DNA of 64,000 bases from Dokdonia sp. 4H-3-7-5 (GTDB lineage Bacteria > Bacteroidota > Bacteroidia > Flavobacteriales > Flavobacteriaceae), in NCBI RefSeq assembly GCF_000212355.1, contig NC_015496.1:620001-684000 (forward strand), given 5' to 3'. Made by a program: the position numbers and the translations under genes. A model generated the notes under the pieces. It did not search any database and had not been told where the DNA came from. It worked only from the letters and a program-made list of their open reading frames with translations. This document shows positions 71 to 63,409 of this stretch, piece after piece (within the stretch, counting starts at the first letter, position 1; each line of letters opens with the position of its first letter).

Positions 71-799
71 ATGAAACGTAACACCTTATATATAACTATA
101 CTTCTTGTTTTTGTTTACGCTTTCGCGAAAGCGCAAACCACAGACCCTGCATATTTAGTTAATGTACAGAAGGCATCACAGTTAGAAATTGACGCATACG
201 ATCCGGCAGATCTCGAAATAGGTATGCTAGTATATAATACAGATGAAAATAGGATTTTTGAATATACAAATAATGGGTTTTTAGAACTTCTTACAGAGAA
301 GAATATATACACTGGATGGTTTATCATTTCTGGCGAAGGAGTGGTCACAGTAAGCGACATTCCGTTTACACCATCACAGGTAACCTTCTCGGCTGCAGCA
401 AATGTAGAGAGTCGCGATATTGATTCAGATAACGGTACTGGAAATAATGATAGAGGAATTAATAATTCATACGGAACTATGAATGGCTTTGCAAATGATA
501 CTGGCGCCACTCTGGTACAGCAAGTAACATTTGTAGGTGGTCATGGGAACTCCATAAACGATATTTCGCGTTATGCGAGTAGCAGCAATTGCATTGGTGT
601 ACGCTATGGAGATCAAAATGGAAGCAGTCTAGGTAAAATAGAAGCAGCATTTGGAGCGTTTACAGCTGATGGATTTACTGTAAATGTAAATTATACAGAC
701 GGTGTAATTACAGTAAATAGTACTAATGCGCTAGTTGATATTCAACCTGATGATGTTAATAATGAAGCACTTCTAGTGATTTTTACGGCCTATAAATAA
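71..799 (+). CDS. Secreted protein of unknown function, tandem family member
   Basis: The chosen start, ATG at 71, gives a classical signal peptide: MKR, then a hydrophobic stretch, then AFAKA followed by QTT, a good signal peptidase I site. An upstream in-frame start at 38 would overlap the previous gene and bury the signal peptide. The N-terminal part has a GMLVYNTDENRIFEY segment of a type common in secreted flavobacterial proteins, where a short repeat precedes a surface domain. The rest is rich in Asn, Gly, Ser and Thr and looks beta-stranded. The C-terminus resembles the partial gene at 1-63. Codons for the cleavage site coincide exactly with a copy of the 16-bp palindrome (118-133). 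Function is not recognised; a surface or extracellular role is inferred. Confidence 0.75.
   Translation: MKRNTLYITILLVFVYAFAKAQTTDPAYLVNVQKASQLEIDAYDPADLEIGMLVYNTDENRIFEYTNNGFLELLTEKNIYTGWFIISGEGVVTVSDIPFTPSQVTFSAAANVESRDIDSDNGTGNNDRGINNSYGTMNGFANDTGATLVQQVTFVGGHGNSINDISRYASSSNCIGVRYGDQNGSSLGKIEAAFGAFTADGFTVNVNYTDGVITVNSTNALVDIQPDDVNNEALLVIFTAYK
118..133. repeat. Palindrome copy 1 (perfect 16-mer)
   Basis: CGCTTTCGCGAAAGCG inside the 71-799 secreted protein, read AFAKA at its signal cleavage site. Confidence 0.98.
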
Positions 800-802
800 A
801 GT

Positions 803-1456
803 ATGAAACAAACATCCCTATATATTACCGCTTGTTTTCTTTTAGCTGTCGCTTTCGCGAAAGCGCAAACGTTAAATCCTCAGTTGCTATTGAAATTGAA
901 TGATGGCACAACAGCAGAAATAAACAATACGACTGGCGCTGAAGCCGGTGTTATGGCTTATGACAGTGACCAAAAGGTTGCAAAAATTTATGATGGCACT
1001 ACATGGCAAGCAATGAGTACACCATCTAGGGGAAGTATAATCCTCAATAGAAATGGAGGGTCTGGAATACTTACCACTGCTAATAACACTTATTTTGACA
1101 TGCCTATTAATGCATCTCACATACAAGCAAACGAAGGAGGTTTATTTACTGTAATAGGTACTGGAGAGATTGAAGTTGCTCAAGATGGTCTTTACGCAAT
1201 ATCTGCCTCTTTATCTACGAGTAATATGCCCGCAGGAAACACAAAGTATATTTTGGCAGCAAGACGTAATGGGTCACTTATTGGATATTTATCACGTGGT
1301 TCTGTATCATTACCTAACCGAGATTATTGGGGGACTTCTGGAACTCTATCATACACACTTAACGCTGGTGATGTTATCAATTTTCAATATGTGATTAATG
1401 CCGGAGGATCAAACCTCAACGCAGTATTTAGCAATGCGTCTATAACAAAATTATAA
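803..1456 (+). CDS. Secreted protein with a C1q/TNF-like beta domain
   Basis: A 217-residue protein starting 3 bases after the previous stop. The N-terminus is a signal peptide ending AFAKA-Q, again encoded by the palindrome (850-865). Residues of about 25-70 contain AGVMAYDSDQKVAKIYDG, like the linker of the preceding gene. The C-terminal 140 residues alternate short strands (DGLYAISASLS, KYILAARRNGS, LNAGDVINFQY) in the manner of C1q/TNF-like jelly-roll domains. That assignment is by pattern and is moderate. The tight spacing with its neighbours argues for co-transcription with the T9SS-type surface protein that follows. Confidence 0.75.
   Translation: MKQTSLYITACFLLAVAFAKAQTLNPQLLLKLNDGTTAEINNTTGAEAGVMAYDSDQKVAKIYDGTTWQAMSTPSRGSIILNRNGGSGILTTANNTYFDMPINASHIQANEGGLFTVIGTGEIEVAQDGLYAISASLSTSNMPAGNTKYILAARRNGSLIGYLSRGSVSLPNRDYWGTSGTLSYTLNAGDVINFQYVINAGGSNLNAVFSNASITKL
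850..865. repeat. Palindrome copy 2 (perfect 16-mer)
   Basis: Perfect copy inside the 803-1456 gene; AFAKA frame at the signal cleavage site. Confidence 0.98.
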
Positions 1457-1460
1457 TACC

Positions 1461-2609
1461 ATGAAAAATATATTAATTATTGTCTTGATATGCTGTGGAT
1501 ACGCTTTCGCGAAAGCGCAAGAGACCGCACATAATTTTGGTAATATTCAAATTCATCACAATGGGGCTATAGGCTTTCATGGTGATCTTGTGAATGACGG
1601 AGATTTTGATAATAATTTAGGTCTAGCGGGTTTTTACAATCAAGAAGAAGAACTATTTATTATAGGAAACAACAAACCCGTCTTCTTTAATATGGAAGTC
1701 GATGTTCCAGAAGACCTAAACTTTGAAGTATCTGTAGGCGTTACTAATTTTTTAGATTTTATAAACGGGAGAATCACAACCCCAAGAGAAGACTTAGGAA
1801 TTAATCTTGATTTTACTGATGATGCAATTTACTTAGGAGAAAGTGATGATAATCATGTGGACGGTTATGTCACAAATCAAGGAAATCTAGAATTTGACTT
1901 CCCTATAGGTGATGATTTTAAAATACGCCAACTTACAGTAGTCCCTCTAGACCCTGCTGGTGATGTGTATCAAGCAGCATATTTTTTTGAAGATCCTAAT
2001 ACTCCAAGTACGCTTTCTGGATCTTTTGATAGAGATTCTTTCCAAAATACATTATCTATTATTGATTCCAATGAATATTGGGATTTAAATGGAACACTAC
2101 CTGTACAAGCAAGACTCACCTGGGATGAGGACACACAGGTACCGGTACTTGCAGATGGCATAGAGTCTCTGAGAGTTGTGGGTTACTCTGAAGTTCTAAA
2201 TAGATGGGTAGACTTAGGAAATACACAGATTACAGGAAATGAAATTAATGGACAGATAACGTCTGACATCTTTGAGCCAGATGGTTTTGCTGCGCTTACA
2301 CTTGGTTCTGTCTTAAGAGGGGGAAGCTCTATAAATGTTTATACCTTCTTCTCCCCAAATGGTGATGGCATTAATGAAACTTTTGTTATTGAAGGATTAG
2401 CTACTAGTCCAGACAATGAGCTGTTCATTTTTAACAGATGGGGTGTAGAAGTTTTCTCAATGAAAAACTACGACAACTCTTTTGATGGAACGTCACAAGG
2501 GAGGGTGACTGTATCTCAGGACGATAAACTGCCAGTAGGCACTTACTACTATGTGCTCAAACTTAAAGATCAGAAAGATCTAGCAGGAGCATTTTACATA
2601 AATCGCTAA
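1461..2609 (+). CDS. Gliding-motility-associated C-terminal domain (T9SS type B) secreted protein
   Basis: A 382-residue secreted protein. The signal peptide ends YAFAKA-QE (palindrome at 1502-1517). The last 90 residues carry the features of the gliding-motility-associated C-terminal domain used as a type B signal by the type IX secretion system: SPNGDGINETF, then IFNRWGVEVF, and a closing PVGTYYYVLKLK region. The middle is an uncharacterised beta-rich segment (residues of about 20-290). By family knowledge such proteins are exported by T9SS and stay on or leave the cell surface. The gene starts 4 bases after the preceding one and is the last of this rightward cluster. Confidence 0.88.
   Translation: MKNILIIVLICCGYAFAKAQETAHNFGNIQIHHNGAIGFHGDLVNDGDFDNNLGLAGFYNQEEELFIIGNNKPVFFNMEVDVPEDLNFEVSVGVTNFLDFINGRITTPREDLGINLDFTDDAIYLGESDDNHVDGYVTNQGNLEFDFPIGDDFKIRQLTVVPLDPAGDVYQAAYFFEDPNTPSTLSGSFDRDSFQNTLSIIDSNEYWDLNGTLPVQARLTWDEDTQVPVLADGIESLRVVGYSEVLNRWVDLGNTQITGNEINGQITSDIFEPDGFAALTLGSVLRGGSSINVYTFFSPNGDGINETFVIEGLATSPDNELFIFNRWGVEVFSMKNYDNSFDGTSQGRVTVSQDDKLPVGTYYYVLKLKDQKDLAGAFYINR
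1502..1517. repeat. Palindrome copy 3 (perfect 16-mer)
   Basis: Perfect copy in the T9SS-type protein; AFAKA frame at the signal cleavage site. Confidence 0.98.
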
Positions 2610-3923: not shown

Positions 3924-4657
3924 ACAGACGCACATTTTCAAAATTAACGTTGCTAGGAGCAGTTGCTGCCTCCCTCCCACTTCAAGCAACCACATCATTT
4001 TTTCAAGGTATTTCTGAAGATGAATTGCTTGGTAAAGGTGCTCCGCTTCTTACTAAGACCTCAGCATACAGACTTCGACCAGAAGCTGCAGTTGCTTATG
4101 AAGAGATGAAAAGTGCAGCATTTAAGGAAGGAATCAAATTCCAAGTAGTATCTAGCTATAGAGACTATAACCACCAAAATAGAATCTGGGAACGCAAATA
4201 CAAAAGCTTTCGCGAAAGCGGACTCAACCCAACTGCAGCTATTGAAAAAATAATACAATACTCCACCATTCCAGGAACTTCAAGACATCACTGGGGTACA
4301 GATATAGATATTGTGGACGCCACTCCAAAAGTTTCAGGAGGGCTTCTCATTCCTTCTAAATTTCATGGAAATGGCCCTTTCTGTAAGTTTAAAGAGTGGA
4401 TGGATAACAATGCAAATACTTATGGATTTTACTTAGTCTACACCGATAACCAAAATCGTAATGGTTTTAATTACGAGCCGTGGCATTACAGCTTTAAAAG
4501 CTTATCACTAGATTACCTCAACAAGTACCAAGAATTGCCTATTAAAAGCAAATTACAATCGGCTAAATTATTAGGAAGCGAGCATTTTACAGAAGCGTTT
4601 ATAGACCGCTATCTCCAACATAATGTAATGGACATCAATCCAGCCTTACGCTCTTAA
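3920..4657 (+). CDS. M15-family D-alanyl-D-alanine carboxypeptidase-like protein (VanY/LdcB type)
   Basis: A 245-residue peptidase of the VanY-like M15B group that trims peptidoglycan stem peptides outside the cytoplasm. The N-terminus (NRRTFSK then a hydrophobic stretch) looks like a Tat signal, with plain Sec as the alternative. Family motifs are present: SSYRDYNHQ, SRHHWGTDIDIVD (zinc ligands H and D), and EPWHYS near the end with the third ligand. A palindrome copy (4206-4219) lies in the coding region, here read as KSFRESG, a different frame from most copies. The gene overlaps the acetyltransferase upstream by 4 bases and converges on the TPR gene with a 4-base overlap of the ends. Confidence 0.87.
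   Translation: MNRRTFSKLTLLGAVAASLPLQATTSFFQGISEDELLGKGAPLLTKTSAYRLRPEAAVAYEEMKSAAFKEGIKFQVVSSYRDYNHQNRIWERKYKSFRESGLNPTAAIEKIIQYSTIPGTSRHHWGTDIDIVDATPKVSGGLLIPSKFHGNGPFCKFKEWMDNNANTYGFYLVYTDNQNRNGFNYEPWHYSFKSLSLDYLNKYQELPIKSKLQSAKLLGSEHFTEAFIDRYLQHNVMDINPALRS
4206..4219. repeat. Palindrome copy 4 (inner 14-mer)
   Basis: GCTTTCGCGAAAGC flanked by A and G; in the M15 peptidase, read as FRES. Confidence 0.95.
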
Positions 4658-5616
4658 AGCAACTGGATTTCCTTGCGTTCTAGCAATGCTTCCTTAAAGT
4701 CAGAACGACTGGCTAGAGCTTTACCTATCCATTGCTCTGCCTTACTTTTATCTCCTTTATGCTTATAAATCTGCGCTAGACGCAAGTAAGCCCAGTCTTT
4801 TGGCACTCCGTCTTTGGCTGTATAATTATCAATGTATTTATGTAAACAAGATATTCCTTGATCTAGGCCTATTCCGTATTGACCAGCGATTTTCCCAAAC
4901 TGATAATGCAATCTATTATCTTCTTCATGCTTAGTTTGAGCAGCCTTTACCGTAGCTAGTGCCTCTTCCGGCTTATTGTTTTTTTCGTAATGTTCTTGTA
5001 ATTTCTGGTAACAAGTTACAGAACCACCTACTTGAACTGCCTTTCTATAATTTACCTCTGCATCATTAGAACGATTATTATATTCTGCAATATATCCATG
5101 AGCTAGATACCCATCTACTGGTGATATGCTTGCAAGCTGATCTGCATATTTCATAGCTTTATCTTCACTCCCTCCTATGATACTTGGTAACTGAATATAA
5201 AATTCAATGAGTGCCCATCTAGCTTCAATATGTTTTGGGTCAAGTGTTGCCGCAGTTTCAAAAGCCTCCTTGATATCGCCTATCATGGTCGCCGCTCTCA
5301 GCTTATTTACTGCTAGCGCTTTCATTCCCATTACGCCACCATATTTATAATGATAGTTTGCATTCTTAGGATACTGCTCAACTAGTTGCTCATAATATGA
5401 TATGGCATCATTCCAGTTTTCTGCATAGCCTTCTATATCGCCTAGATATTCGATAGTTTTTGCATGAGTAGGATGCGCAGATAAGTATGTTTTGAAAAAT
5501 GGTTTTGCTTGTTGATATTGTTCTTTCTTAAAAAGAGTTTCCGCTTTCGCGAAAGCGTTATCATTTTGTGCTACCACAAAAACAGGAAAGCACAATAAGA
5601 GAATCCATTTTATCAT
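4654..5616 (-). CDS. Secreted tetratricopeptide-repeat protein
   Basis: The chosen start at 5616 gives MIKWILLLCFPVFVVAQ, a clear signal peptide. The upstream in-frame start at 5655 lies on the far side of a promoter element (TATATTTG at 5631-5638), so it is rejected. The mature part is about 300 residues of helix pairs with TPR signatures (AKTIEYLGDIEGYAENWNDAISYYEQ and DWAYLRLAQIYKHKGDKSKAEQWIGKAL, given here in part). TPRs mediate protein contacts; no enzymatic domain is seen. A palindrome copy (5542-5557) encodes AFAKAE just after the signal peptide. Probable periplasmic location. Confidence 0.83.
   Translation of the reverse strand: MIKWILLLCFPVFVVAQNDNAFAKAETLFKKEQYQQAKPFFKTYLSAHPTHAKTIEYLGDIEGYAENWNDAISYYEQLVEQYPKNANYHYKYGGVMGMKALAVNKLRAATMIGDIKEAFETAATLDPKHIEARWALIEFYIQLPSIIGGSEDKAMKYADQLASISPVDGYLAHGYIAEYNNRSNDAEVNYRKAVQVGGSVTCYQKLQEHYEKNNKPEEALATVKAAQTKHEEDNRLHYQFGKIAGQYGIGLDQGISCLHKYIDNYTAKDGVPKDWAYLRLAQIYKHKGDKSKAEQWIGKALASRSDFKEALLERKEIQLL
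5542..5557. repeat. Palindrome copy 5 (perfect 16-mer)
   Basis: In the TPR gene, AFAKA frame, after the signal peptide. Confidence 0.98.
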
Positions 5617-5630
5617 TTTCAAATTTTTAT

Positions 5631-5638: not shown

Positions 5639-5662
5639 TACCAATATGATGCCAAAACTGAT

Positions 5663-8667: not shown

Positions 8668-9831
8668 ATGACAAACTACTTCTCTTCACAGTTTAAACTT
8701 GGAATTTTAGGCGGTGGCCAGCTCGGTAAGATGATGCTTTACGATACTAGAAAGTATGATATTCAAACATATGTGCTTGACCCTAGTGATGATGCTCCTA
8801 GCAAGATTGCTTGTGATTATTTTGAGCAAGGAAGTCTTATGGATTATGATACGGTAGTCGCTTTTGGCAAAAAAGTAGATGTACTTACTTTTGAGATAGA
8901 AAGTGTAAATATAGAAGCCCTTGAAGCACTAGAAAAAGAGGGGGTGAAAGTGTTTCCGCAACCATCTGTGTTGCGCAACATACAAGACAAAGGGATACAG
9001 AAAGACTTTTATGCACAACACAACATTCCAACAGCGGGATATACAAAGTACGCTTTCGCGAAAGCGGTAAAAGAAAACTTAGGCACAGCATCAAGTGATA
9101 TCGAGTTTCCATTTATCTGGAAATCATGTACGGGAGGATATGATGGAAAAGGAGTCTCTGTCGTAAGAAACGCCGAAGATTTAGACCACCTACCTCAAGT
9201 ACCATGCATCGCCGAAAAAATGATCCCGTTTAAAAATGAGCTTGCAGTAATTGTAGCTCGTAGTGTATCTGGCGAAGTAAAGACATACCCTGTAGTGGAA
9301 ATGGAATTTCATCCAGAAGCAAACCAAGTTGAGTATGTAATATGCCCAGCTCGTATAGATGAGAATGTTGCAAATAAAGCTCGTGCTATAGCAGAGCAGG
9401 TTTCAAACGCATTTGGCCACGTAGGTCTGCTTGCTGTCGAGATGTTTCAAACAGAAGATAATGAGATTCTTGTAAATGAAGTTGCTCCTAGACCTCACAA
9501 TAGCGGTCATTACAGCATAGAGGGAAGTTTTACAAATCAGTTTGAACAACATCTTAGAGCTATTTTAGACCTACCACTAGGTAACACAGATAGCAAAGTA
9601 GCATCTGTAATGGTGAACCTAGTAGGTGATGAGGGACATACAGGCGCAGTAAAATATAAGAACATAGAACAAATTATGGCGATGGATGGTGTAACACCAC
9701 ACATTTATGGCAAGAAGGAGACAAGACCTTTCCGCAAGATGGGACACGTTACCATTGTAGATCACAATCTTGCAAAGGCAAGACAAGTAGCTCAAGAGGT
9801 TAAAGAAAACATACGTGTAATTGCACAATAA
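8668..9831 (+). CDS. purK: N5-carboxyaminoimidazole ribonucleotide synthase
   Basis: A 387-residue ATP-grasp enzyme that joins bicarbonate to AIR in purine synthesis, feeding the mutase encoded just downstream. It begins with GILGGGQLGKMM, the nucleotide-binding start typical of PurK. Other marks are FIWKSCTGGYDGKGV in the ATP-grasp core, LAVEMFQTEDNEILVNEVAPRPHNSGH (metal ligands E and N; read in part), and FEQHLRAILDLPLG. Length is normal. A palindrome copy (9051-9066) encodes AFAKA between the N-terminal domain and the ATP-grasp lobe. It is 11 bases from purE, so purKE form an operon. Confidence 0.96.
   Translation: MTNYFSSQFKLGILGGGQLGKMMLYDTRKYDIQTYVLDPSDDAPSKIACDYFEQGSLMDYDTVVAFGKKVDVLTFEIESVNIEALEALEKEGVKVFPQPSVLRNIQDKGIQKDFYAQHNIPTAGYTKYAFAKAVKENLGTASSDIEFPFIWKSCTGGYDGKGVSVVRNAEDLDHLPQVPCIAEKMIPFKNELAVIVARSVSGEVKTYPVVEMEFHPEANQVEYVICPARIDENVANKARAIAEQVSNAFGHVGLLAVEMFQTEDNEILVNEVAPRPHNSGHYSIEGSFTNQFEQHLRAILDLPLGNTDSKVASVMVNLVGDEGHTGAVKYKNIEQIMAMDGVTPHIYGKKETRPFRKMGHVTIVDHNLAKARQVAQEVKENIRVIAQ
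9051..9066. repeat. Palindrome copy 6 (perfect 16-mer)
   Basis: In purK, AFAKA frame. Confidence 0.98.
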
Positions 9832-12654: not shown

Positions 12655-13863
12655 ATTTTTCTCCTCAATCCACTTAGACATAAATTTGGTACTACGCATG
12701 GAATGATGCAGCAACATCTGACCTGTAAAATTATTAAGTCGGCTGGTTTCTAGATTCGTCTTAATAGAATTGACTCTCGCTATGAAATCTTCTTCAAAAT
12801 CTTCTTTTTGAAAATTTTTATTGATGATTTCTTTGCCTTGCTCCTGAGCTTTGCTCCAAACCAACTCATCATTGTATAAGGTAATCGCCTCTCTCGCAAA
12901 AGTTACATCATCATCAGTTATCGCACCACTCCAAGGCAAACCTTGCTTCATCCCTTCTGCCCCTATTGTTGTGGTCACAGATGGAGTTCCACACTGCATT
13001 GCATCTATGAACTTTCCTTTTAAACCTGCCCCAAAACGCAACGGAGCAAGTAATACTCGTGCATTGGCTATCACTTCATGCGCATCTTCTGCTCTTCCTT
13101 TTACAATAAAACCATCCTTCTTGTTATGCAGTTGCATCACTTTTTCTGACGGATAAGCACCATAGATATGCAACTCTGCTGTGGGAATTTCTTTTCTAAT
13201 AAGCGGCCAGATATTCTTTTTGAGCGCTAGCGTAGCGTCCCAGTTAGGAAGATGTATAAAATTACCTATTGCAATAAAATGTTGTCGCTCATTAAAAGGC
13301 TTACAATCGGCTGGCGCTTTGGGCAATAAAAATGGTAGGTAATGTAAGAGTGAGCTAGGCACTTTAAAGAAGTCTTGCAACAAGGCAATCTCTACTCGAG
13401 AAATCATTAACGTAAGATCACATCTATATATGGAAGCAATTTCCCTTTTGGCTACATCAGAGATAAGATCATTTTCGTTAAAATCTCTACCCTCTTTTAC
13501 TGCTTGTTGGCGTGCTTTTCTCAGGCAGTGTAAATCTTCGGTGTCTAGAATTTTTATAGCATCTGGACATTGTTCTGCGATGCGCCATCCAAATTGCTCT
13601 TCGGCCATGAATCGGTCAAAAAGGACAATATTGGGTTGGTACGCTTTCGCGAAAGCGTTAAAAAATTCATCATTTACACGTATCTCTTGTGTTGTGATGC
13701 CCAGCGTTTCTAGATCAAAAGCATTTTCTGAAACTCCAGCCGTACTAGCATAAGTAATCTTCCAACCCTTTGCTATCATCATATCTAATAGCTGCAACAT
13801 CCTACTTCCCGCTGCCGAAGAGGTAGGCTCAACCCATACAGTAGAGATCACTAATACATTCAT
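12637..13863 (-). CDS. Glycosyltransferase, group 1 (GT4-like)
   Basis: A 408-residue cytoplasmic glycosyltransferase with two Rossmann-like halves. The N-terminal half starts MNVLVISTVWVEP and has a GSRMLQL loop. The C-terminal half has GNFIHLPNWDA, IYGAYPSE, then APLRFGAGLKGKFIDAMQCGTPSVTT, the usual donor-binding region with G-K-E/D spacing of GT4 enzymes, ending TIGAEGM. The acceptor is not evident. A palindrome copy (13642-13657) encodes AFAKAY. A promoter element TATTTTTG (minus, 13869-13876) lies immediately before the start. It is divergent from the GbsR/MarR regulator, which may therefore affect it. Confidence 0.85.
   Translation of the reverse strand: MNVLVISTVWVEPTSSAAGSRMLQLLDMMIAKGWKITYASTAGVSENAFDLETLGITTQEIRVNDEFFNAFAKAYQPNIVLFDRFMAEEQFGWRIAEQCPDAIKILDTEDLHCLRKARQQAVKEGRDFNENDLISDVAKREIASIYRCDLTLMISRVEIALLQDFFKVPSSLLHYLPFLLPKAPADCKPFNERQHFIAIGNFIHLPNWDATLALKKNIWPLIRKEIPTAELHIYGAYPSEKVMQLHNKKDGFIVKGRAEDAHEVIANARVLLAPLRFGAGLKGKFIDAMQCGTPSVTTTIGAEGMKQGLPWSGAITDDDVTFAREAITLYNDELVWSKAQEQGKEIINKNFQKEDFEEDFIARVNSIKTNLETSRLNNFTGQMLLHHSMRSTKFMSKWIEEKNKKEPI
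13642..13657. repeat. Palindrome copy 7 (perfect 16-mer)
   Basis: In the leftward glycosyltransferase, AFAKA frame. Confidence 0.98.
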
Positions 13864-15646: not shown

Positions 15647-16558
15647 ATGAAAAAATTAATTATATCAGGTGGGAGCGGCTTTTTAGGGTCGCTCTTAACT
15701 GATTATTTCGGAAGTAGCTTTGAGGAGATTGTTTTGCTTTCGCGAAAGCAAAAACCACAGCATAACAACGTGAGAACGGTTCTTTGGGATGCAAAAACCT
15801 TCTCTGGTTGGGAGCGAGAATTTGAAGATGCAGATGTAGTTATTAATATGGCTGGACGCTCTGTAGACTGCCGCTATACGGATAAAAATAAAGACCTCAT
15901 CATGAACTCCCGTGTAGACACGACTACGATTATAGGGAAGACAATTGCACAATGTAAAAACCCTCCTTCCACTTGGCTCAACTCATCTACAGCGACTATA
16001 TATCGTCACTCGCTAGATAAGGAAATGACCGAACGCACTGGAGAAATAGGCACTGGATTTTCTGTAAGCGTGGCAAAAGCATGGGAAGATGCATTGTTCT
16101 CAAGCACGACGACGCAAACGCGTAAGATTGCGTTGCGCACATCTATCGTGCTGGGCAAAAATGGCGGAGCCTTGCAACCAATTAAAAAAATCACCCAACT
16201 AGGACTAGGAGGAAAACAAGGTGATGGAAAGCAGAAATTCAGTTGGATTCATGAAGAAGACTTTTTACGTAGTCTTGACTTTCTAATCACTAATTCCCAT
16301 ATAAAAGGACCAATTAATATAGTGGCACCTAAGCCCACCACAAATGCACATCTTATGTCATTGATGCGTGATACTCTTAAAATACCTTTTGGCATCCCTT
16401 CTCCTAAACCATTATTGGAAGTTGGTGCCTTTGTAATAAGAACAGAAACCGAATTGTTACTCAAAAGCCGCAACGTAATCCCAGAACAATTACTAAAAGA
16501 GGGCTTTACATTTAGGTATGAGCAACTAGATAAGGCATTAAAAGATTTGTTACGTTAA
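15647..16558 (+). CDS. TIGR01777-family SDR epimerase
   Basis: A 303-residue NAD(P)-binding extended SDR protein of the TIGR01777 (SulA/YfcH-like) type. It begins with IISGGSGFLGSLLTDYF (the glycine-rich dinucleotide motif), has NMAGRSVDCRYTDKNK, and the C-terminal part contains PINIVAPKPTTNAHLM and a DUF1731-like end (VIPEQLLKEGFTFRY). The substrate is unknown. A palindrome copy (15736-15749) reads LSRK here and is extended as TGCTTTCGCGAAAGCA. It ends the regulator-membrane protein cluster. Confidence 0.9.
   Translation: MKKLIISGGSGFLGSLLTDYFGSSFEEIVLLSRKQKPQHNNVRTVLWDAKTFSGWEREFEDADVVINMAGRSVDCRYTDKNKDLIMNSRVDTTTIIGKTIAQCKNPPSTWLNSSTATIYRHSLDKEMTERTGEIGTGFSVSVAKAWEDALFSSTTTQTRKIALRTSIVLGKNGGALQPIKKITQLGLGGKQGDGKQKFSWIHEEDFLRSLDFLITNSHIKGPINIVAPKPTTNAHLMSLMRDTLKIPFGIPSPKPLLEVGAFVIRTETELLLKSRNVIPEQLLKEGFTFRYEQLDKALKDLLR
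15735..15750. repeat. Palindrome copy 8 (inner 14-mer, T/A outer pair)
   Basis: TGCTTTCGCGAAAGCA: a symmetric change of the outer pair. In the epimerase, LSRK frame. Confidence 0.95.
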
Positions 16559-17522: not shown

Positions 17523-18357
17523 ATAACAACGCTAGACTTAACCAAAGTAGTGGGATTCCCTCTACCCAAAAGGATGTAAAATAACTCTTAGCTGAAGCAC
17601 GCTTTCGCGAAAGCGTGATACAAACCACTACCACTGCTACAATTATTAAGTGTGTAGTTAACATCGGCATAGATAAGTCGTACTTTAAAAAGTCTAGAAT
17701 TAAAAATAAGAAAAGCCAAATCACACCGATGATTTTGGCTTTTTTTATGCCTACTACTTGAGGCAGCGTACGTAAAGAGGCGAGGTCATAACTCGCATCT
17801 CTTATCTCAAATGGAATCATGATAGCGATTACAAAAAGAAAGCGCTGTACACATACAATCCACACATCCCAATACATCGAGAGACCTTGCTCGAGAACTG
17901 GTAATAACACCGTCACTCCTGCCCATACAAGACCTATGATGTAGATTTTTACACCAGAGATGCTTCTCAAATTCCCCTTATTATTATCTGTGCTTGTTGC
18001 TGGGAGAAAAAATGGAACTGCATACAGTAGCGTGATTAACCCCAAAATACCACAAGCCACCCACACTTCTAGTGGGAGCCAAAATGCCGTTACAATCATC
18101 CCAATTCCGCAAAAAACAGAAAAAACTTGTATTGATTTTAATGATTTTGCTAGGCTCCGATGGTGTAAACCAGCTATTTCGGCATATTTAACAAAATTAT
18201 AGCCAGTCACTGTGCTAAAAAATAAAAACGCAAGCAACTCGTAATTAACGTTTATGTCTAAAGACAAGCAAGTCACCCACCCTAATGCAACCACGGCTAA
18301 GCTCACGTGGATACTACTGTTTATATAAAAGTCAAAAACACGTTTAAACAACTGCAT
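17503..18357 (-). CDS. UbiA-like polytopic membrane protein
   Basis: A 284-residue protein with seven to nine membrane helices. The general pattern and the YNFVKYAE and EIRDASYDLASLRTLPQVVG segments recall the two aspartate-rich loops of UbiA prenyltransferases. The first loop lacks the usual NDxxDxxxD acidic pattern, so catalytic activity is doubtful. A palindrome copy (17598-17617 including an extension to 20 bp) lies in the coding region, read as LSRK. Promoter element TATTTTTG (minus, 18362-18369) precedes the start. It is divergent from gcvP. Confidence 0.7.
   Translation of the reverse strand: MQLFKRVFDFYINSSIHVSLAVVALGWVTCLSLDINVNYELLAFLFFSTVTGYNFVKYAEIAGLHHRSLAKSLKSIQVFSVFCGIGMIVTAFWLPLEVWVACGILGLITLLYAVPFFLPATSTDNNKGNLRSISGVKIYIIGLVWAGVTVLLPVLEQGLSMYWDVWIVCVQRFLFVIAIMIPFEIRDASYDLASLRTLPQVVGIKKAKIIGVIWLFLFLILDFLKYDLSMPMLTTHLIIVAVVVVCITLSRKRASAKSYFTSFWVEGIPLLWLSLALLFNYLLD
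17598..17617. repeat. Palindrome copy 9 (extended to 20 bp)
   Basis: CACGCTTTCGCGAAAGCGTG, the longest symmetric copy. In the UbiA-like gene, LSRK frame. Confidence 0.98.
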
Positions 18358-26831: not shown

Positions 26832-26847
26832 CGCTTTCGCGAAAGCG
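26832..26847. repeat. Palindrome copy 12 (perfect 16-mer, intergenic)
   Basis: Between the convergent mlaF and DUF389 genes, 7 bases after the mlaF stop. No T tract follows, so it is not a plain terminator. Confidence 0.98.
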
Positions 26848-43744: not shown

Positions 43745-46700
43745 ATGGAAAAGAAATATATTATTGCATTTGATCAAGGCACAACGAGTACTAGAGCTAT
43801 CATATTTGACCATCAAGGCACCATAAAAAACATTGCCCAAAAGGAACTTAAACAACATTACCCGAAACACGGGTGGGTAGAACACGATCCTATAGAGATT
43901 TTTGAAGCACAGCAAGCTACCTTCAAAGAGATTATCGAAACGTCTGACATATCTATCGATGAGATTGCTGCGATAGGTATTACTAACCAGAGAGAGACTA
44001 CCGTAGTCTGGGATAAACATACTGGAAAACCTGTCTACAATGCTATTGTATGGCTGGATAAGCGCACTAAAGAGATTTGTGAACAATTAAAATCTCAAGA
44101 TCTAGAAGAGTATGTGAATAAGAATACGGGACTCATTATAGACTCCTACTTCTCAGGAACTAAGGTCAAGTGGATCTTAGATAATGTAGATGACGCTTTC
44201 GCGAAAGCGCAACAAGGCGATTTACTTTTTGGAACTATAGACACTTGGCTTATTTGGAAATTCACCAATGGTGCTGTACACGCAACAGACCACTCTAATG
44301 CCAGCCGAACATTACTTTATAACATTATAGACTTAAAATGGGATGAAAAGATGCTAGAGGCATTAAACATTCCAGAGTCAATGCTACCTAAGGTTCAACA
44401 TAGCGCCTCAGATTTTGGAAACATCATACTAGACGGCCAAAGCATTCCTATTTGTGGAGTTGCTGGAGATCAACAGGCTTCGCTTTTTGGACAAGGAGGT
44501 TACAAATCTGGAATAGCTAAAAACACCTACGGTACCGGTTGCTTCCTACTTATGAATACTGGAAAAAAACCTGTTACCTCAAAAAATGGACTGCTTACTA
44601 CCCTATGTGCTAGCTTACCAGATGGTAAAGTTAAATATGCACTAGAAGGCTCCATATTTGCAGGAGGCGCATCTGTACAGTGGCTACGGGATAAACTTGA
44701 CCTCATAGATCATGCAAGAGACACAGAAGATATCTGTATGAATACAGCAGCTACAGATGATTTATACGTAGTTCCTGCTTTTGCAGGACTAGGAGCTCCT
44801 TACTGGGACATGGATGCAAAAGGAGCAATTTATGGATTAACACTAGACTCAGGCAAAGAAGATATTATCAAAGCTACGGTAGATGCGATTGCCTATCAAA
44901 CACGAGATGTTCTAGATGCAATGATTGAAGATTCTGGCAAACAAATGGAAGCGCTACGAGTAGATGGCGGGGCCACTGCAAATAATTACCTTATGCAATT
45001 TCAATCAGACATTCTTAACATAGCTGTAGATCGTCCAAAGATGCTAGAAGTTACTGCACTAGGAGCTGCATTTTTAGCTGGAATTCAAGCAGGCATTTGG
45101 AACAAAAAAGATATTTCTAAAATACGTCAAGTAGATTCCATTTTTGAACCAACGATCACTGAATATGAGCGTAACAAGAAATATACCGGCTGGAAAAATG
45201 CCGTAGCACGCACAAAGAGCACTACAAACCAGATGCTCACAACCCAAGAAGATATCCCAATGCGTTTCTCTGTACTTGACAGACAGCGCCAAATAGCTCG
45301 TGCACAAAAAGAAAAATTTGATCTTATTGTTATAGGTGGTGGTGTTACTGGAGCTGGAATTGTACTTGACGCTTCATCTCGTGGTATGAATGTATGTCTT
45401 ATAGAAAAGAATGATTTTGCTTCTGGAACAAGTAATAAATCTACAAAGCTTATTCATGGTGGACTGCGTTACCTTAAGCAAATGGAGATAGGCTTAGTAC
45501 AAGAGTCGGGAAGTGAACGAGCAATATTGCATACCCTTGCTCCTCACCTTGTTGTTCCAGAAAAAATGCTACTTCCACTTATAGAAGGTGGCACCTATGG
45601 AAAAATGATGACGGCAATAGGCTTAAAAGTTTATGACTTTCTTGCAAATGTAGAGGGTGATGATAAACGTAAAATGTTAAGCGCAGAAGAAACTGCTACC
45701 AGAGAACCTTTACTTAATAAAAACCAATTAATAGGTGGTGGTTATTATGCAGAGTATCGCACAGATGATGCACGACTTACCGTAGAGTTATTAAAAAAAG
45801 CAGCCAGTTTTGGCGCTACTATTATTAACTACTGCGAGATGAAAACCTTTAAATATGATGAGCAAGGAAAAATAAAAAGCTTACAATGTTTTGACCACAA
45901 TACACAAAGAAATTTTAAACTTAAATCACAGCACTATGTATCTGCTGCAGGACCTTGGGTTGATCTTTTAAGAAAGAAAGACCACTCCATGAATAACAAG
46001 TATTTGCACCTTACAAAAGGGGTGCACATTGTATTCTCTAGAGAGCGTTTTCCATTAACCCAATCTATCTATTTTGATGTGCCGGATGGTCGTATGATTT
46101 TTGCCATCCCTCGCGGTAGATCAACATACGTAGGAACGACGGATACGAACTATAGCGGAAACCTCAACCGCGTTGTGGCTACTCAGGATGATGCAACCTA
46201 CTTACTTGATGCGACTAATAATATGTTTCCTAGTGCTAACCTCACCATAGATGACATAGAGTCTAACTGGGCTGGACTAAGACCACTTATACATGAAGAT
46301 GGAAAAGACCCTTCTGAATTGAGTCGTAAAGATGAGATTTTTGTGTCTGACACAGGGTTGATCTCTATTGCTGGCGGCAAACTTACTGGATATCGTAAAA
46401 TGGCACAGCGAGTTATAGATCGCGTTCTTAAAGATGTGCCGGAGAAGAAGAAAGCACACCTCGTAAAATCATACACAGAAAAAATACCGCTTACCTCTGA
46501 GCCTTTAAAAAACACGGTAGAAGTAGATATCTACCAACAAGAGATTAAAAAGCGTCTTGAACATGTAGGTATTGTAAATGAATATCAAAGTTGGTACCTA
46601 GCAACTACGTATGGGAAGCAAAGCAATACCATCATTGATAAGATGAGTTATTTCTTAAATGAAAATCCAGAGGAGCGCTTAATACGTGCAGAAGTTTGGT

Positions 46701-48715: not shown

Positions 48716-48728
48716 CGCTTTCGCGAAA
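48716..48728. repeat. Degenerate palindrome copy (intergenic)
   Basis: CGCTTTCGCGAAA then ATG; between the symporter and galE. Confidence 0.75.
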
Positions 48729-48814
48729 ATGGAAAGTGGCATCATTAAGTACTTAGTATTAATAGAGGACTGACAAAATCAATTACTTTAGCAGATATCT
48801 AAATAGGTTATAGA

Positions 48815-50830: not shown

Positions 50831-51298
50831 ACAAAATATCCAATCGCTCCTAAATAAACTCTTTTAATTCAAGGAAGGGAAAAATATACAATAAGCATAT
50901 AATCATACACAATAAGGTCGCTTGTAACTGTTTATCTATTGCTGTGTAATAATGAGTAACAAGATTATGAAAACAATCCTATTTTCATTTTATAAAGGTT
51001 TTTAGAAAAGCAAGTAGAAAGTCTAATGAACAGTAGAAATTCAATAGTTATTTAGCTGATAGTTAATTGAGTATTTACAGACAACCCATACCAATGGAGC
51101 GCAGAGCTTTGTATAATAAATTTAGTGAGAAGAGAGTAGCAACATACTTCTCATCGCTACCTAGTATATATTGATGTTTAGCTTTCGCGAAGGCGCTCTC
51201 TTTTAAAACATAAATGCCGTTAAAAAAAATATGTACATCTGATAGTCATATTTTCACAATAAATAGTTAAACTTTTTATTATAATAGTATTACTATCA
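50831..51298. other. Gene-free AT-rich stretch
   Basis: Between the REP-like element and the TetR gene I see no credible coding region. It contains a degenerate palindrome copy at 51181-51195 (GCTTTCGCGAAGGCG, one mismatch) and otherwise low-complexity AT-rich sequence. Confidence 0.6.
51181..51195. repeat. Degenerate palindrome copy (intergenic)
   Basis: GCTTTCGCGAAGGCG, one mismatch in the right arm; upstream of the TetR gene. Confidence 0.75.
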
Positions 51299-55054: not shown

Positions 55055-56454
55055 GGTTACTTATAAAATATACAGTACTTGTGTTGTGTTACGCTTTCGC
55101 GAAAGCGGGACTAGCTCAAACACCTGTACTTTCTCCACAAAGTATTTCTTTTGAGGAATACTTAGGGTATGTAAAGCAACATCATCCATTAATCAAGCAA
55201 GCCGAATTAGTGTTAAGCACAGGAGAAGCAAATCTGCTCAAAGCAAGAGGAGGTTTTGATCCCAAAATTGAGGTAGACTATGACCGTAAAAAGTTTAAAG
55301 ACACCGAATATTTTGATCAGCTTAACGCTACTTTTAAAATCCCTACATGGTACGGAATTGAGCTAAAAGGAAGTTTTGAAGAAAACACAGGTGAGTTTCT
55401 CAATCCTAATCTTACAGTTCCCGAAGATGGATTATATAGCGCCGGAGTTTCCTTTGCACTAGCACAAGGGCTACTTATTAATGAACGTATGGCTACGTTA
55501 AAGAAAGCACGCTTTTTTGAACAGCAAACCATTGCAGATCGTGACTTACTCGTAAACAACTTAATTTATGAGGCGAGCTTGGCTTATTTTGACTGGGTAG
55601 AAGCAGAAAATGAAAAAGCTATTTACGGTACTTTTTTAGAGAATGCCACCACCAGACTAGACGCCGTAACAAGAAGCGTAGCAGAAGGTGACAAAGCGGC
55701 CATAGACATTACAGAAGCTAGAATCACTGCTCAAACAAGACGTCTTGATCTAGAAGCTGCCTCGCTTAAGGCTCAAAAGGCACGCCTAGTTGCGAGTAAT
55801 TTTTTATGGATAGATGGTATTCCATTAGAAATACAAGAAACGGTGTATCCAGAAAAACCTGAGCTTGCAGTACTGGACGCCTCTCTATTATTAGTAGGAA
55901 TCACAGATACCTCGGTTTTTTTAAATAATCACCCTAAGCTTAAAAGTCTAGACGCAAAAATTGATGGCTTAGAAGTAGATCGATTTTTAAAGAAAAACAA
56001 GTTGCTTCCTAAGGTAAACTTGCAATACAATTTTCTATCACCAGATGCAGATCGCTTAGATGGTTTTAATACGGCAAATTACAAGGCTTTTGTAGATGTG
56101 AGCTTTCCTATTTTCTTGCGTAAGGAACGCGGAGATTTAAATCTCGCTAAGCTTAAAGTTCAAGACGCCGAGTTTGAACGTACAGCAACTTCCCTGGCTA
56201 TCAAAAACAAGCTTGACGCCACAGAGGCAGAGATTACATCCCTTTTAGAACAAAATAACCTCATCACTGAGATTGTGGTAGATTATGAAGCCCTTGTAAA
56301 AGCTGAGGAGCGTAAATTTTTTCTAGGAGAAAGTTCACTATTCCTCATTAATTCCCGCGAGCAAAAGTTAATAGACGCAAGACTTAAAGCAAATGCCCTT
56401 TCTGTAAAGGAACTTACGGCAAAGGCAAAGTTGTATAATGCGGCAGGGCTATAA
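55051..56454 (+). CDS. TolC-family outer-membrane efflux protein
   Basis: A 467-residue outer-membrane channel. The signal peptide runs to about residue 22 (CYAFAKAGLAQ), with a perfect palindrome copy (55092-55107) in it. Two similar halves contain long helices (SFEEYLGYVKQHHPLIKQAEL, VRSVAEGDKAAIDITEARIT-like and a second set after residue 230), as usual for TolC. It completes the exporter operon with the upstream ABC protein and adaptor. A terminator follows (56497). Confidence 0.9.
   Translation: MRLLIKYTVLVLCYAFAKAGLAQTPVLSPQSISFEEYLGYVKQHHPLIKQAELVLSTGEANLLKARGGFDPKIEVDYDRKKFKDTEYFDQLNATFKIPTWYGIELKGSFEENTGEFLNPNLTVPEDGLYSAGVSFALAQGLLINERMATLKKARFFEQQTIADRDLLVNNLIYEASLAYFDWVEAENEKAIYGTFLENATTRLDAVTRSVAEGDKAAIDITEARITAQTRRLDLEAASLKAQKARLVASNFLWIDGIPLEIQETVYPEKPELAVLDASLLLVGITDTSVFLNNHPKLKSLDAKIDGLEVDRFLKKNKLLPKVNLQYNFLSPDADRLDGFNTANYKAFVDVSFPIFLRKERGDLNLAKLKVQDAEFERTATSLAIKNKLDATEAEITSLLEQNNLITEIVVDYEALVKAEERKFFLGESSLFLINSREQKLIDARLKANALSVKELTAKAKLYNAAGL
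55092..55107. repeat. Palindrome copy 18 (perfect 16-mer)
   Basis: In the TolC-like gene, AFAKA frame, within the signal peptide. Confidence 0.98.
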
Positions 56455-56552: not shown

Positions 56553-59500
56553 TTATTCTTTCTTGTCGCTACCGCTTTCTTTTACTTTCTTACGGTTATC
56601 ACTACCACGACGGTCTATCAATTTATTAAAAGGATCTATTCCAGCTTCTACTGGTTTCTCATCAACTATCACATCAAAACCATTGTTGATGTCGCTCACT
56701 TTCACTTTCTTTAGATACAGTACATTCACTGCTCCTGTTTCCTTATCCTCTTCGCCAAAAACCCCTAGCTCAATATAATCTGCTAGTGGTAAGGATGCAA
56801 TGGCATCCTCCTCACCTTCTGGAGTAAATGAAAGACTATCGCCTGTGATGGACTTATATTCTTTTTTACCCTTCTTTTTTGAACGATACTTACTTATAAT
56901 CGCATCTATATGTACAGCATAACTACCATCTGGCAATTCTGTATAAGTGGCATCTTCTACTTTGTTATCATAAAGCGTGATGGTCTCAAACATATCTGTA
57001 ACTAGATATTTAAGCGAGTCTGGTGTTACCGCTTTTATATCTGCCACAAACTCTGTAGCTACTGGATAAGGACGTCCTTTAAATTGATATTTCTCGGCAA
57101 AGCGTTTTGCCACACCGTTAAAGACATCTTCTCCTAAGTAATCACTCATAGCATATAATACTAATGATCCCTTCTGATAATGAATATACTGTTGGTTCTC
57201 ATTATACATTAACGGCTGCTCCTTAATCTGCTCGCCAGTTCTACCAGTAAGATATCCATCCATCGCGTCTTTTAAGAAACGACGCATCTGGTTTTTACCA
57301 TAGGTTTTCTCAAGCACCTTGAGCGAACTATACTCAGACATACTTTCTGACAGTAATGTTGCTCCTTTAGCCTGTGCTCCTATTACTTGGTGAGCCCACC
57401 ACTGGTGTGCTAGCTCATGAGCAGTTATTGCCAGCGGATAATCTACTGCATCTTGATCATCATCATCTACATCTGCTACAAAACCTACCCCTTCGCTAAA
57501 AGGGATTGTGTTTGCAAAGGCCTGTGCAAAGCTTCCATAAGCCTTAGGAAACTCTATAATTCGAACTTGCTTATGCTGGTAAGGTGTATAATTCTCGTTA
57601 TAATAAGCGAGACCCTTTTTCATACCATTCATCATACGATCAAGGTTATACGTATGACCAGGATTGTAATAAATCTCTAGATTAATTCCTTGGTATTCTT
57701 CTCGCATCACTTCATATTCTGCACTTAAGAAAGAATAGAAATTGAGCATTTTTGAATCCATTTTGTAATGAAAATACTTTCTTCCATCCTCTTCCCACTC
57801 CTTTATAAGGTATCCAGGCGCAATCGCTATTTGCTTTGGGGAAGTACTCAACGTAGCCTCAAAGTCTATCCAGTCACTATAACCTCCTATATAACTACGA
57901 TCTCTTGCTCCAGGAGCATCTGGATCTGGTAAGCGGTCCTTAGGTGCAAGATCATACTTTTCACGTAGTTGTGTGTTTCTTAATTCAAAATTATCATTGT
58001 AACCTATAGAAGGAAACATGCCATAGTTGACAAAGGTTCCATTAGTAGAAATAGGCGATTTATCATCTAGAAATTTGTTCTCCTCATTATGCATGGTAAA
58101 CTTAAACACTAAAGTATCTCCAGGCTTCATAGGCTTACTAAAAGCATACATTTTATAGTTGTAGTCTTCATTATCATAAACCACTTCTGCATCTCTATCT
58201 AGCGTGATTTCTGTAGGATAATCTGTGAGGTTCACATGTAAAGTATCTATGGCTACACTATCCTTATTAACCATTGTAAAGGTCGCTCCTGCTTTAAAAT
58301 CTCTCGTTTTTGGATACATATCCATAAACGTATTTACTGCAATAAGCCTAGGTTGTGGTATTCCTGCATACTTTCCTAAATCTCTTTCGGCTTGCACACG
58401 TAGTTCTTCACGTTCTTTTCCTGTGAGTAATTCATTCTCTACATTATTGACGTACCAAGAGTAACTACCTATCCCTAAAAATATCACTAGAGAAACTGCT
58501 GCTGTTGCTATGATGGGTGTAGATAATCTCGCTTTCGCGAAAGCGATACGACCTTTTACATTGGTCCCCACACCGCGTCTGTAGAATAAGATAGCTGCCA
58601 TTAAAAGAATAACGCCAAATGAAATCCAATACACTCTAAACGTATAAAAACGAGGTAACACCGTACCATAACCATCAAAATCTGAAGGGCTAGGTGTACC
58701 ACCCGAATTGAAATCATAAATAGCTTGCTCTACTCCAATTGCATTTTGCAATAACGGAATCGCGACAGCAAGCACTAATAAAGTTACTAGGCCAAGCCAT
58801 TTATTTTTAATCAATGTATGCACGAAAAGCGCCATCAAAATCCACGGAATATACTTCCAGATATTGATAAAAAAAGCTTGAAATACATAAAGGTCTATCT
58901 GGTAATCATAAAAGCCATTTGCCGTTTGAAATGCTAGACCACAAAGAATAAGTACTACTTGTAAAAAGCCTGTCATAAGAAATAGCGATATCCCTTTTGA
59001 CACTAGAAATACCCAGTCTTTTGTAGGCGTTACATCGACTATCTGGTTGAGATGAGCTGCCCTAGAGCGATCCATCAAGAATCCAGCATACAGATGAATA
59101 AGTAAAAATGAAAATATGATAATGTATGCAGATGGCTCTGCAAGCATGGTCCACGTTTTTGGTAGTATAGCCGTGTTAAAAATGAGCTGAGAAAAACTCA
59201 TCATTACAATGGTAAGTACAATGGCTAGAAAACTGATAATAATAAACGGCCAGCCTGTAATTATATATTTAGTATCACTTTTTACCAATAGCCATAGGGT
59301 TTTTAATTGCCCAACAAGAGAGAAATCTGTAGATACTGCTGGCATTTCAATGTTTCTTACTTCACTAAAGTTTTTCTTAGTTGCTCTTACCGTCTTTTTC
59401 TTGAAAAGACGAATGGTCATTGCATGTTGAGAAAAATTAAAGCGTGCAATAATCCCAAATAAAATTGCAAATGAAATGAGTGCCCATAATAAACGGTTAT

Positions 59501-60233: not shown

Positions 60234-60234
60234 A

Positions 60235-62051: not shown

Positions 62052-62052
62052 G

Positions 62053-62127
62053 TGGGCGCAGAGGGATTCGAACCCCCGACCCCTTGGGTGTAAACCAAGT
62101 GCTCTGAACCAACTGAGCTATGCGCCC
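62053..62127 (-). tRNA. tRNA-Val(TAC)
   Basis: A full cloverleaf on the minus strand. Acceptor GGGCGCA pairs with TGCGCCC; the D stem is GCTC/GAGC; the anticodon stem CTTGG/CCAAG closes the loop TTTACAC with anticodon TAC (reads GUA, valine); T stem GGGGG/CCCTC has loop TTCGAAT. The CCA end is not encoded. A terminator follows. Confidence 0.95.
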
Positions 62128-62236
62128 CGATATTTTATAATCAGGTAACAATAAAATCTTGACTACTGCCTTTCTCTTATTGCGGGTGCAAATATAGAAT
62201 TAAAGTTTAATAGTTTGAAATCTTTTTGAAGAAAAA

Positions 62237-63409
62237 TTAAATAATTTCTGCTACCACAAAAGTACTACCGCCTATAAATATAAGATCACTTGCGCCAGCT
62301 GTCTTTTTTGCAGCACTAAAAGCTTCTTTTACATTAGGATACGCTTTTCCATTCAATCGGTGAGTCTCTGCAGTTTTTCTTAACAATTGCACCTCCATTC
62401 CTCTCGGCACATCTGGTTTACAAAAATAATAAGTTGCATAACTTGGAAAAAGAGGCAAAATGCTCCCAAGATCCTTATCAGATACTACACCCAATACAAT
62501 ATGTAATTTTTTATATTTCTCCTTACTTAGCTGCTCAATGACATAAGTCAGCCCCTCTTTATTGTGCCCCGTATCACAAATCACCCTTGGCAATTCTTGT
62601 AGTATTTGCCATCGACCTAGAAGTCCTGTATTCTTAACTACATTTTTAAGTCCTTTTGCAATGTGCTGTATTCCCACATGGAAATCTGCGCCTTGCAATA
62701 CTGAAAATGCTACTTGAACGGTTCTAATATTGTGTTTCTGGTATGAACCTATCAAATCTGATTGCATAGGCATTAAATCAAAATCATAAGCTTTGTATAG
62801 TGTTGCGTTACGCTTTTGCGAAAGCGTACTAAAAACATCTTCTGTCTCCTCATGATACTCTCCTATCACTACTGGCACATTTTCTTTTATAATTCCTGCT
62901 TTTTCGGCGGCAATACGTGGTAATGTATCTCCTAGAAATTGAGTGTGATCAATACCTATATTAGTAATAACAGACAATACAGGCGTTATAATATTAGTAG
63001 CATCTAGTCTACCTCCTAGACCTACTTCAATAATAGCAATATCTACTTTTTTGGTTGCGAAATAAGCGAAAGCCATTCCTACCGTCATCTCAAAAAATGA
63101 CAGTTGGTGCTCCTCAAAAAAGGCTTTGTGCTTTTTTACAAACCCCATGACAAATTGCTTACTTGCCATCTCTCCATTAATCTTGATACGCTCTCTAAAG
63201 TCTTTGAGATGTGGAGACGTATATAAACCTACAGTGTATCCAGCTTCTTGCAACACAGACGCCATCATATGACTTGTAGAACCTTTACCATTAGTTCCCG
63301 CTACATGTACCGCTTTAAACTGAGTGTGTGGATTGCCGAGGTATTCTGATAATAATTTAATATTATCTAAATCTGCTTTATAAGCAGCTGCTCCTTTGCG
63401 TTGATACAT
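62237..63409 (-). CDS. folC: Dihydrofolate synthase/folylpolyglutamate synthase
   Basis: A Mur-ligase-type enzyme that adds glutamate to folates. P-loop VAGTNGKGSTSHMM, IIEVGLGGRLDATNI, ITNIGIDHTQFLG and ICDTGHNKEG are intact. The only standard start in frame is 63409 (MYQRKG), but homologues start about 15 residues earlier. The in-frame upstream codons encode TYQETLDWLFAQLP right up to an ATC at 63452-63454, with a stop a few codons further up. The true start may be ATC (63454). A near-perfect palindrome copy with one mismatch (62811-62826) encodes LSQK. A -7-like element TATCTTTA (minus, 63478-63485) precedes it. Confidence 0.93.
   Translation of the reverse strand: MYQRKGAAAYKADLDNIKLLSEYLGNPHTQFKAVHVAGTNGKGSTSHMMASVLQEAGYTVGLYTSPHLKDFRERIKINGEMASKQFVMGFVKKHKAFFEEHQLSFFEMTVGMAFAYFATKKVDIAIIEVGLGGRLDATNIITPVLSVITNIGIDHTQFLGDTLPRIAAEKAGIIKENVPVVIGEYHEETEDVFSTLSQKRNATLYKAYDFDLMPMQSDLIGSYQKHNIRTVQVAFSVLQGADFHVGIQHIAKGLKNVVKNTGLLGRWQILQELPRVICDTGHNKEGLTYVIEQLSKEKYKKLHIVLGVVSDKDLGSILPLFPSYATYYFCKPDVPRGMEVQLLRKTAETHRLNGKAYPNVKEAFSAAKKTAGASDLIFIGGSTFVVAEII
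62811..62826. repeat. Degenerate palindrome copy in folC
   Basis: CGCTTTTGCGAAAGCG, a single mismatch at position 7; read as LSQK on the gene strand. Confidence 0.85.

Follow-up and report, generated by a model that had tools for sequence, protein, structure and literature searches.

The 64,000-nt stretch of Dokdonia sp. 4H-3-7-5 described here (contig NC_015496.1, positions 620,001 to 684,000; the window, with coordinates counted from its first letter) carries a palindromic motif scattered through unrelated genes and the spaces between them. The 16-mer form, CGCTTTCGCGAAAGCG, occurs 15 times and the inner 14-mer, GCTTTCGCGAAAGC, 19 times, in agreement with the counts of the initial annotation; 100 shuffles of the window yield neither. 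Allowing up to two mismatches to the 14-mer gives 24 places and hence five degenerate copies, slightly fewer than the six or seven first reported. Seventeen of the exact 14-mers lie inside open reading frames (ORFs) and two, at 26833 and 34697, lie between them (Table 1). The inner hexamer TCGCGA is seldom found alone, as 23 of its 27 copies in the window fall within TTCGCGAA.

The motif is neither local nor a product of chance, because the genome (one contig, 3,389,993 bp) contains 757 exact copies of GCTTTCGCGAAAGC and none of a reversed control pattern. A 464-kb sample of this genome contains 118 perfect sites, 12 with one mismatch and 32 with two; the corresponding averages for composition-matched control palindromes are 0, 0.12 and 0.97. 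Together with the empty shuffles, these counts rule out a local artefact and confirm a dispersed palindromic signal, larger than first described. Intergenic DNA is enriched in sites, with 38 of the 118 outside ORFs though ORFs cover 90% of bases. This enrichment was not noticed in the initial annotation, to which the longer half-sites, G-poor flanks, one-sided form and regular spacing described below were not visible either. In a 793-kb sample, the 193 perfect sites divide into 112 in ORFs, 77 between ORFs and four without assignment, and the inter-ORF sites comprise 47 tandem, 15 convergent and 15 divergent cases. Searches of the open-access literature with the 14-mer, 12-mer, 10-mer and 8-mer strings, and for Dokdonia or Nonlabens motifs, found no report of it; neither the 14-mer nor the 12-mer appears in the 20 best-ranked of 199 papers matching any of the strings.

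Table 1. Copies of the palindrome in the window.
Feature	Position	Strand	Context
Perfect 16-mer	118..133	none	ORF 38-799, AFAKA frame
Perfect 16-mer	850..865	none	ORF 803-1456
Perfect 16-mer	1502..1517	none	ORF 1461-2609
Perfect 14-mer	4206..4219	none	ORF 3920-4657, FRES frame
Perfect 16-mer	5542..5557	none	ORF 4654-5655(-); same codons in 5/5 aligned carrier genomes, including G190
Perfect 16-mer	9051..9066	none	purK-like ORF 8668-9831
Perfect 16-mer	13642..13657	none	ORF 12637-13863(-)
Perfect 14-mer	15736..15749	none	ORF 15647-16558, LSRK frame
Perfect 16-mer	17600..17615	none	ORF 17503-18357(-)
Perfect 16-mer	19786..19801	none	gcvP (18488-21337)
Perfect 16-mer	23393..23408	none	ORF 23247-24098
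Perfect 16-mer	26832..26847	none	between ORFs
Perfect 16-mer	28984..28999	none	ORF 28417-29502(-)
One-sided site, GCTTTCGCGAAA + GG	30718..30731	+	
Perfect 14-mer	34697..34710	none	between ORFs
One-sided site, GCTTTCGCGAAA + AG	38828..38841	+	
Perfect 16-mer	39917..39932	none	porU-like ORF 36530-40339(-)
Perfect 14-mer	43527..43540	none	ORF 42360-43634
Perfect 16-mer	44194..44209	none	ORF 43730-46924
One-sided site, GCTTTCGCGAAA + AT	48717..48730	+	between ORFs
Degenerate site, 1 mismatch	51181..51194	none	
Perfect 16-mer	55092..55107	none	ORF 55051-56454
Perfect 16-mer	58530..58545	none	ORF 56553-60233(-)
Degenerate site, 1 mismatch	62812..62825	none	

Among the host genes, the single ORF 43730-46924 matches both the glycerol kinase and the glycerol-3-phosphate dehydrogenase families.

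Anatomy, conservation and spacing of the sites

The complete unit is roughly TTACGCTTTCGCGAAAGCGTAA (~22 bp), composed of two half-sites that read CGAAAGCGTAA outward, and each side is followed by 20-25 bp in which the outward strand is poor in G. Beyond the core, the consensus on each side is GTAA (+1 G 0.82, +2 T 0.61, +3 A 0.71, +4 A 0.63). From +4 to +20 the outward-strand G frequency is 0.083, compared with 0.152-0.213 for 59 control palindromes; the depletion runs from +4 to about +20-25 and is fading by +30. It is present in this genome, in four other Dokdonia and in g11, a genus of the same family, and is weaker in G190 (14 sites). Sequence records of Nonlabens and Dokdonia, stretches of low-copy genomes and 26 phage-contig sites have it as well; it is not seen in 14 sites from records of other organisms or when all viral matches are pooled. 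At in-gene sites, the 5' side is depleted in C and the 3' side in G at all three codon positions, indicating that synonymous and amino-acid choices are both affected.

All 156 TTTCGCGAAA cores in the 464 kb have GC on at least one side, and 118 have it on both. Among 111 such cores from four other Dokdonia, in regions that overlap by orthology, there is a single exception. About a quarter of sites have one perfect half only, and the two-mismatch class consists mostly of GCTTTCGCGAAA followed by two non-GC letters, chiefly AT or AA. In these one-sided sites the intact half is stronger than a half of a perfect site, with the outer C present in 53 of 58 (0.82 in perfect sites); in the weak half, GC is mostly replaced by A and then A or T, so that it is weakened yet not random. 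Leading-strand bias is absent from the one-sided units, of which 19 of 38 lie on the leading strand (replichores taken from GC skew). An RNA hairpin or terminator was rejected, as one-sided sites disrupt the stem and 112 of the 193 sites lie within ORFs.

The sites are conserved at orthologous positions far beyond their surroundings. Orthologous site 14-mers are identical in 16/16 cases in G401, 15/15 in G399, 13/15 in G397, 8/13 in G402 and 2/7 in G190, compared with 45.9%, 37.2%, 5.0%, 2.7% and 0.6%, respectively, for other 14-mers in the same genes. The gcvP site is preserved exactly, codon for codon, in G401, G397, G402, G399, G190 and G242, and has two mismatches in G394. In G399 the gcvP match is split in two and contains a stop, which may be a sequencing error or a real break.

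Length changes were examined at 17 perfect and two one-sided ORF sites in ten genomes. Of the 190 site-genome pairs, 114 could be aligned; the remaining 76 have no orthologue or an alignment that does not cross the site. The exact 14-mer is missing from 53 of the aligned pairs, but only two of the 114 differ in length, both at the one-sided site 38828. Orthologues without the site usually have a different protein segment rather than a shorter one. The rarity of length changes indicates that sites arise by substitution, not insertion.

Spacing is far more even than under random placement. For the first 100 listed sites, the coefficient of variation of the gaps is 0.72 in this genome and 0.74 in G397 (P = 0.00015 and 0.0008); for the 193 perfect sites in 793 kb it is 0.592 against a null value of 0.895, with 12 gaps shorter than 1 kb where 38 are expected. 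Inclusion of one-sided sites lowers it to 0.539 (null, 0.919) and leaves no gap above 10 kb within the stretches analyzed, where 3.6 are expected. One-sided sites lie a median of 2.36 kb from the nearest perfect site (1.26 kb at random), only nine of 60 are within 1 kb of one (42% at random), and the densities of the two classes are anticorrelated (rho = -0.41, p = 0.0097). One-sided sites apparently do the same job as perfect ones, because they sit far from them and are denser where those are rarer; what is needed seems to be a single site in every few kilobases. Counts per 20 kb are less variable than Poisson (variance/mean 0.56), and the bias toward origin or terminus considered in the initial annotation did not emerge, with no trend by eye, and no formal test, against the rough positions of the skew switches, about 1.3 and 3.0 Mb.

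Carrier genomes, islands and phages

Every one of the 18 genus genomes searched carries the 14-mer, in 369-905 copies. The family, represented by 397 genomes, includes 80 with any copy and six with hundreds (two of g1, three of g11 and one of g191); in a phylum sample of 395 genomes, 22 have a match and Dokdonia sp. 4H-3-7-5 alone has hundreds. A 16-mer scan of named species genomes gave, among the matches listed, at least 36 Dokdonia, at least 31 Nonlabens and at least 13 others, the Nonlabens figure including four BBFL7 matches that we take to belong there. By sequence matching, g11 is probably Nonlabens: G394 matches a Nonlabens record best (78% over 6.1 kb), and the matches of G242 are mixed. 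Dokdonia and Nonlabens, both marine bacteria, have hundreds of identical copies, exact even inside protein genes.

The carrier state requires a minimum of two changes on each of the GcvP, AddA and AddB trees. The AddB tree places the carriers and the non-carrier G144 in one group (support 86). G144 and its congener G329 have nine and six copies, and no TTTCGCGAAA core was found in the 160 kb and 80 kb sampled from them, respectively; a loss in g145, or two gains, is therefore likely. No other genome-wide palindrome was detected in 80-160 kb each of the non-carriers G144, G329, G021, G337, G287, G076 and G054. G144 does contain a clustered palindrome, TAAAACGTTTTA, with 11 copies in 160 kb (C1 start and C2:1-60000). 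It is local, because GTAAAACGTTTTAC has only four copies in the whole G144 genome; there are three in G329 and single copies in G000 (the present genome, window position 28970), G397, G404 and G412.

In low-copy genomes the sites often reside in a shared island. All 16 sites of G076 fall within 78 kb (G076:C3:32331-110016), and G076 and G287 have six identical site gaps in common. Of 41 sites in low-copy-genome stretches, 25 have similar flanks in a stretch of another genome (about 73-100% identity); the other 16 have no flank match. One island stretch encodes RND efflux components, a multicopper oxidase, metal-type ATPases and an ArsP permease. Several Flavobacteriaceae genera have in common this heavy-metal resistance island with its Dokdonia-type sites, for which the identical spacings of 933 and 2446 bp serve as a marker.

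Sites are also present in proviral DNA. IMG/VR contains at least 120 site-bearing stretches, and contigs with two or more sites provide, among the matches listed, 26 non-redundant sites with the full flank signature. Some lie within terminase, portal, primase and head-protease ORFs. Of 14 phage-contig records, five have an integrase, two are Mu-like (Portal_Mu) and one has a serine recombinase, so these eight look temperate from their gene content; record 2841145138, with restriction and transporter genes, may instead be an island. Two contig proteins have relatives in named phages, at less than 60% identity. The isolated Nonlabens phages P12024S and P12024L, which have no annotated integrase, contain no site and not even TCGCGA; they count as one case because they are close relatives. 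For genomes of about 35.7 kb each, the lack of this 6-mer might reflect avoidance. RecT, ERF, Rad52 and YqaJ domains were not found in 119 ORFs scanned (of 133 listed) from six site-bearing contigs, which are incomplete and of which at least one may be an island.

A putative dimeric reader and its alternatives

We tentatively regard each copy as the binding site of a putative homodimeric reader of double-stranded DNA with a role in chromosome upkeep. The two-fold symmetry, the presence of at least one strong half, the stronger intact half of one-sided sites and the flanks linked to each half are consistent with a homodimer bound to double-stranded DNA, and the even spacing with a process that reaches over a few kilobases. 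Sites on the chromosome, in prophage-like DNA and in the island, with none in the P12024 phages, are consistent with a mark on chromosome-resident DNA. It is the combination of symmetry, spacing and residence that leads us to favor a reader of this kind. The homodimer would contact the two half-sites, each with the G-poor outward strand beyond it, and one perfect half with a weaker partner would still be functional. The cell would require a site, perfect or one-sided, about every 3 kb on chromosome-resident DNA, and selection would create sites by point substitution where proteins and spacers permit, ceasing once one is nearby. The reader could serve chromosome organization and segregation, or the handling of recombination and repair. 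With a little more reserve, the sites may represent a novel category of signal that spans the chromosome and has a dimeric reader to itself: ~70-bp elements (a 22-bp palindrome with G-poor wings) selected every few kilobases at a cost in protein sequence and also kept by prophages and islands, over whose flanks the reader, or a factor it loads, would wrap or move outward.

Several observations weigh against a dedicated dimeric reader. No reader protein was found. Each of the ten carriers has a single ParB, and no column of the ParB alignment divides them from 11 non-carriers. The flank signature extends 20-25 bp past the core, further than an ordinary dimer would contact. G is also somewhat scarce (0.121) in the flanks of 17 look-alike A-F-A-K/E-A codon runs, and the peptide context could therefore account for some of the flank bias. 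The spacing test was made on 20-kb stretches, in which long gaps are poorly visible. Uptake sequences, too, are reported or claimed to be evenly spaced and preferentially intergenic, and the distribution of sites among phages fits Chi.

Other candidates for a gene linked to the reader gave negative results: a second ParB, given the single ordinary one per carrier (n = 10) without a diagnostic column; RecC, found in 0/29 genomes; and a cytosine-5 methyltransferase (PF00145), not found in five of the ten carriers tested. None of 482 loci examined contains the canonical parS 14-mer, and the Bacteroidetes LexA motifs given in part of PMC8565304 do not match the site. Close site pairs did not point to an autoregulated reader gene, as the ten neighboring ORFs scanned, a part of all neighbors, are ordinary; they include topoisomerase IB, SAICAR synthetase, gcvH, PfkB, an EngA-type GTPase, hemD and URO-D. 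The type IB topoisomerase gene (L434:5022-6098) ends about 12 bp before a site pair 136 bp apart.

A bidirectional Chi-like hotspot is a rather doubtful alternative. AddAB would read the site single-stranded, whereupon degradation would stop and recombination start, the palindrome working both ways. AddB-type PDDEXK_1 proteins occur in 20/20 genomes and RecC in none of 29, and the 5' flank of the site is T/G-rich, as is the DNA preferred by RecA. Known Chi sites, however, are directional and 5-8 nt long, unlike this long palindrome; the one-sided units lack the strand bias of a directional signal, and their weak half is still constrained. Neither the AddA nor the AddB tree points to an enzyme or a transfer particular to carriers. 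An AddA-length ORF lies by addB in 17 of 20 stretches, but not in those of the three g11 carriers, where AddA is unconfirmed. The density of 757 in 3.39 Mb resembles that of E. coli Chi, for which a table of PMC1939737 lists 1008 copies in a genome of about 4.64 Mb. The site-bearing contigs lack the recombinase and YqaJ domains sought, and the site-less Nonlabens phages are annotated with ERF and YqaJ, a pattern of own recombinase versus sites that a passage of PMC3784561 reports for Chi. This comparison involves two closely related phages and an incomplete set of ORFs.

A DNA uptake sequence, whereby a competence receptor would prefer motif-bearing fragments and biased uptake with recombination (molecular drive) would spread the motif, is unlikely. 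Uptake dialects are restricted to few genera, as is the motif. Haemophilus and Neisseria uptake sequences are described in part of PMC1939737 as evenly spaced and over-represented in non-coding DNA, where the author disputes that the spacing is even enough for compaction; competence is reported for Riemerella, which is classed in the same family, and R. columbina shows a preference for DNA of its own (a section of PMC7965970). Yet the established uptake sequences treated in that part of PMC1939737 are not palindromic, whereas 118 of the 156 cores here are perfect on both sides, and sites lie inside phage genes and through the metal-resistance island of non-carriers.

Still less probable is an origin like that modelled for HIP1, in which a DNA methyltransferase and directed mismatch repair together generate the motif. 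To our knowledge, no methyltransferase target is as large as a 22-bp unit with flanks, and the inner hexamer is hardly ever found outside the longer motif. PF00145 was not found in G000, G402, G412, G242 and G190 of the ten carriers, a result that concerns cytosine-5 enzymes only. The motif is nonetheless palindromic, iterated and of limited density, and the model in the portion of PMC4390886 concerned predicts saturation at a spacing set by repair.

An inserted selfish repeat that copies itself, of the repetitive extragenic palindrome (REP) or miniature inverted-repeat transposable element (MITE) type, would explain many copies of one motif in unrelated genes but is highly improbable, since orthologues without the exact site rarely differ in length and copies avoid each other. 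Of the two possibilities initially raised, a dispersed DNA-level signal or a selfish or recombinational motif, the signal is supported, being genome- and genus-wide, conserved, even and constrained in its flanks; the insertional selfish form is not supported.

Comparison with known systems

The exact site sequence makes purification of the putative dimeric reader straightforward, and this strictly conserved genome-wide signal, with its clear anatomy, occurs in culturable marine bacteria. The islands suggest that the motif can trace gene flow out of the carrier genera. It also offers a direct test of the reason for which certain bacteria scatter short palindromes along their chromosomes, a problem that dates back to HIP1.

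The evidence disfavors a cytosine-5 methyltransferase, RecC, a second ParB and insertion, and each known system departs from the motif in some respect. REP and MITE elements insert, and the motif shows no insertion at empty orthologous sites beyond the 2/114 length changes. The parS and Noc sites, which dimers read, are likewise palindromes of about this length and have TTTC/GAAA arms; the motif has a different half-site spacing and hundreds of copies, in carriers with a single ordinary ParB. Like Haemophilus and Neisseria uptake sequences, as presented in the part of PMC1939737 cited, it is evenly spaced, prefers non-coding DNA and is limited to few genera, but it is palindromic and found in phage genes and a mobile island. 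With the Chi sites of RecBCD and AddAB it shares a similar density, going by the same table, and it is present in prophage-like DNA and not in two related recombinase-carrying phages; it differs in being palindromic and long, with one-sided units free of strand bias and no RecC found (0/29). The likeness to HIP1 (GCGATCGC) and other cyanobacterial highly iterated palindromes, proposed initially, holds in kind: these too are palindromic, clade-restricted and present in very many copies in and between genes. It does not extend to the octamer itself, and the cytosine-5 enzyme was not found in half of the carriers tested, this genome included. The Dokdonia motif is GCTTTCGCGAAAGC, not GCGATCGC, and spans about 22 bp rather than 8 bp, with long G-poor flanks, even spacing and a tolerated one-sided form.

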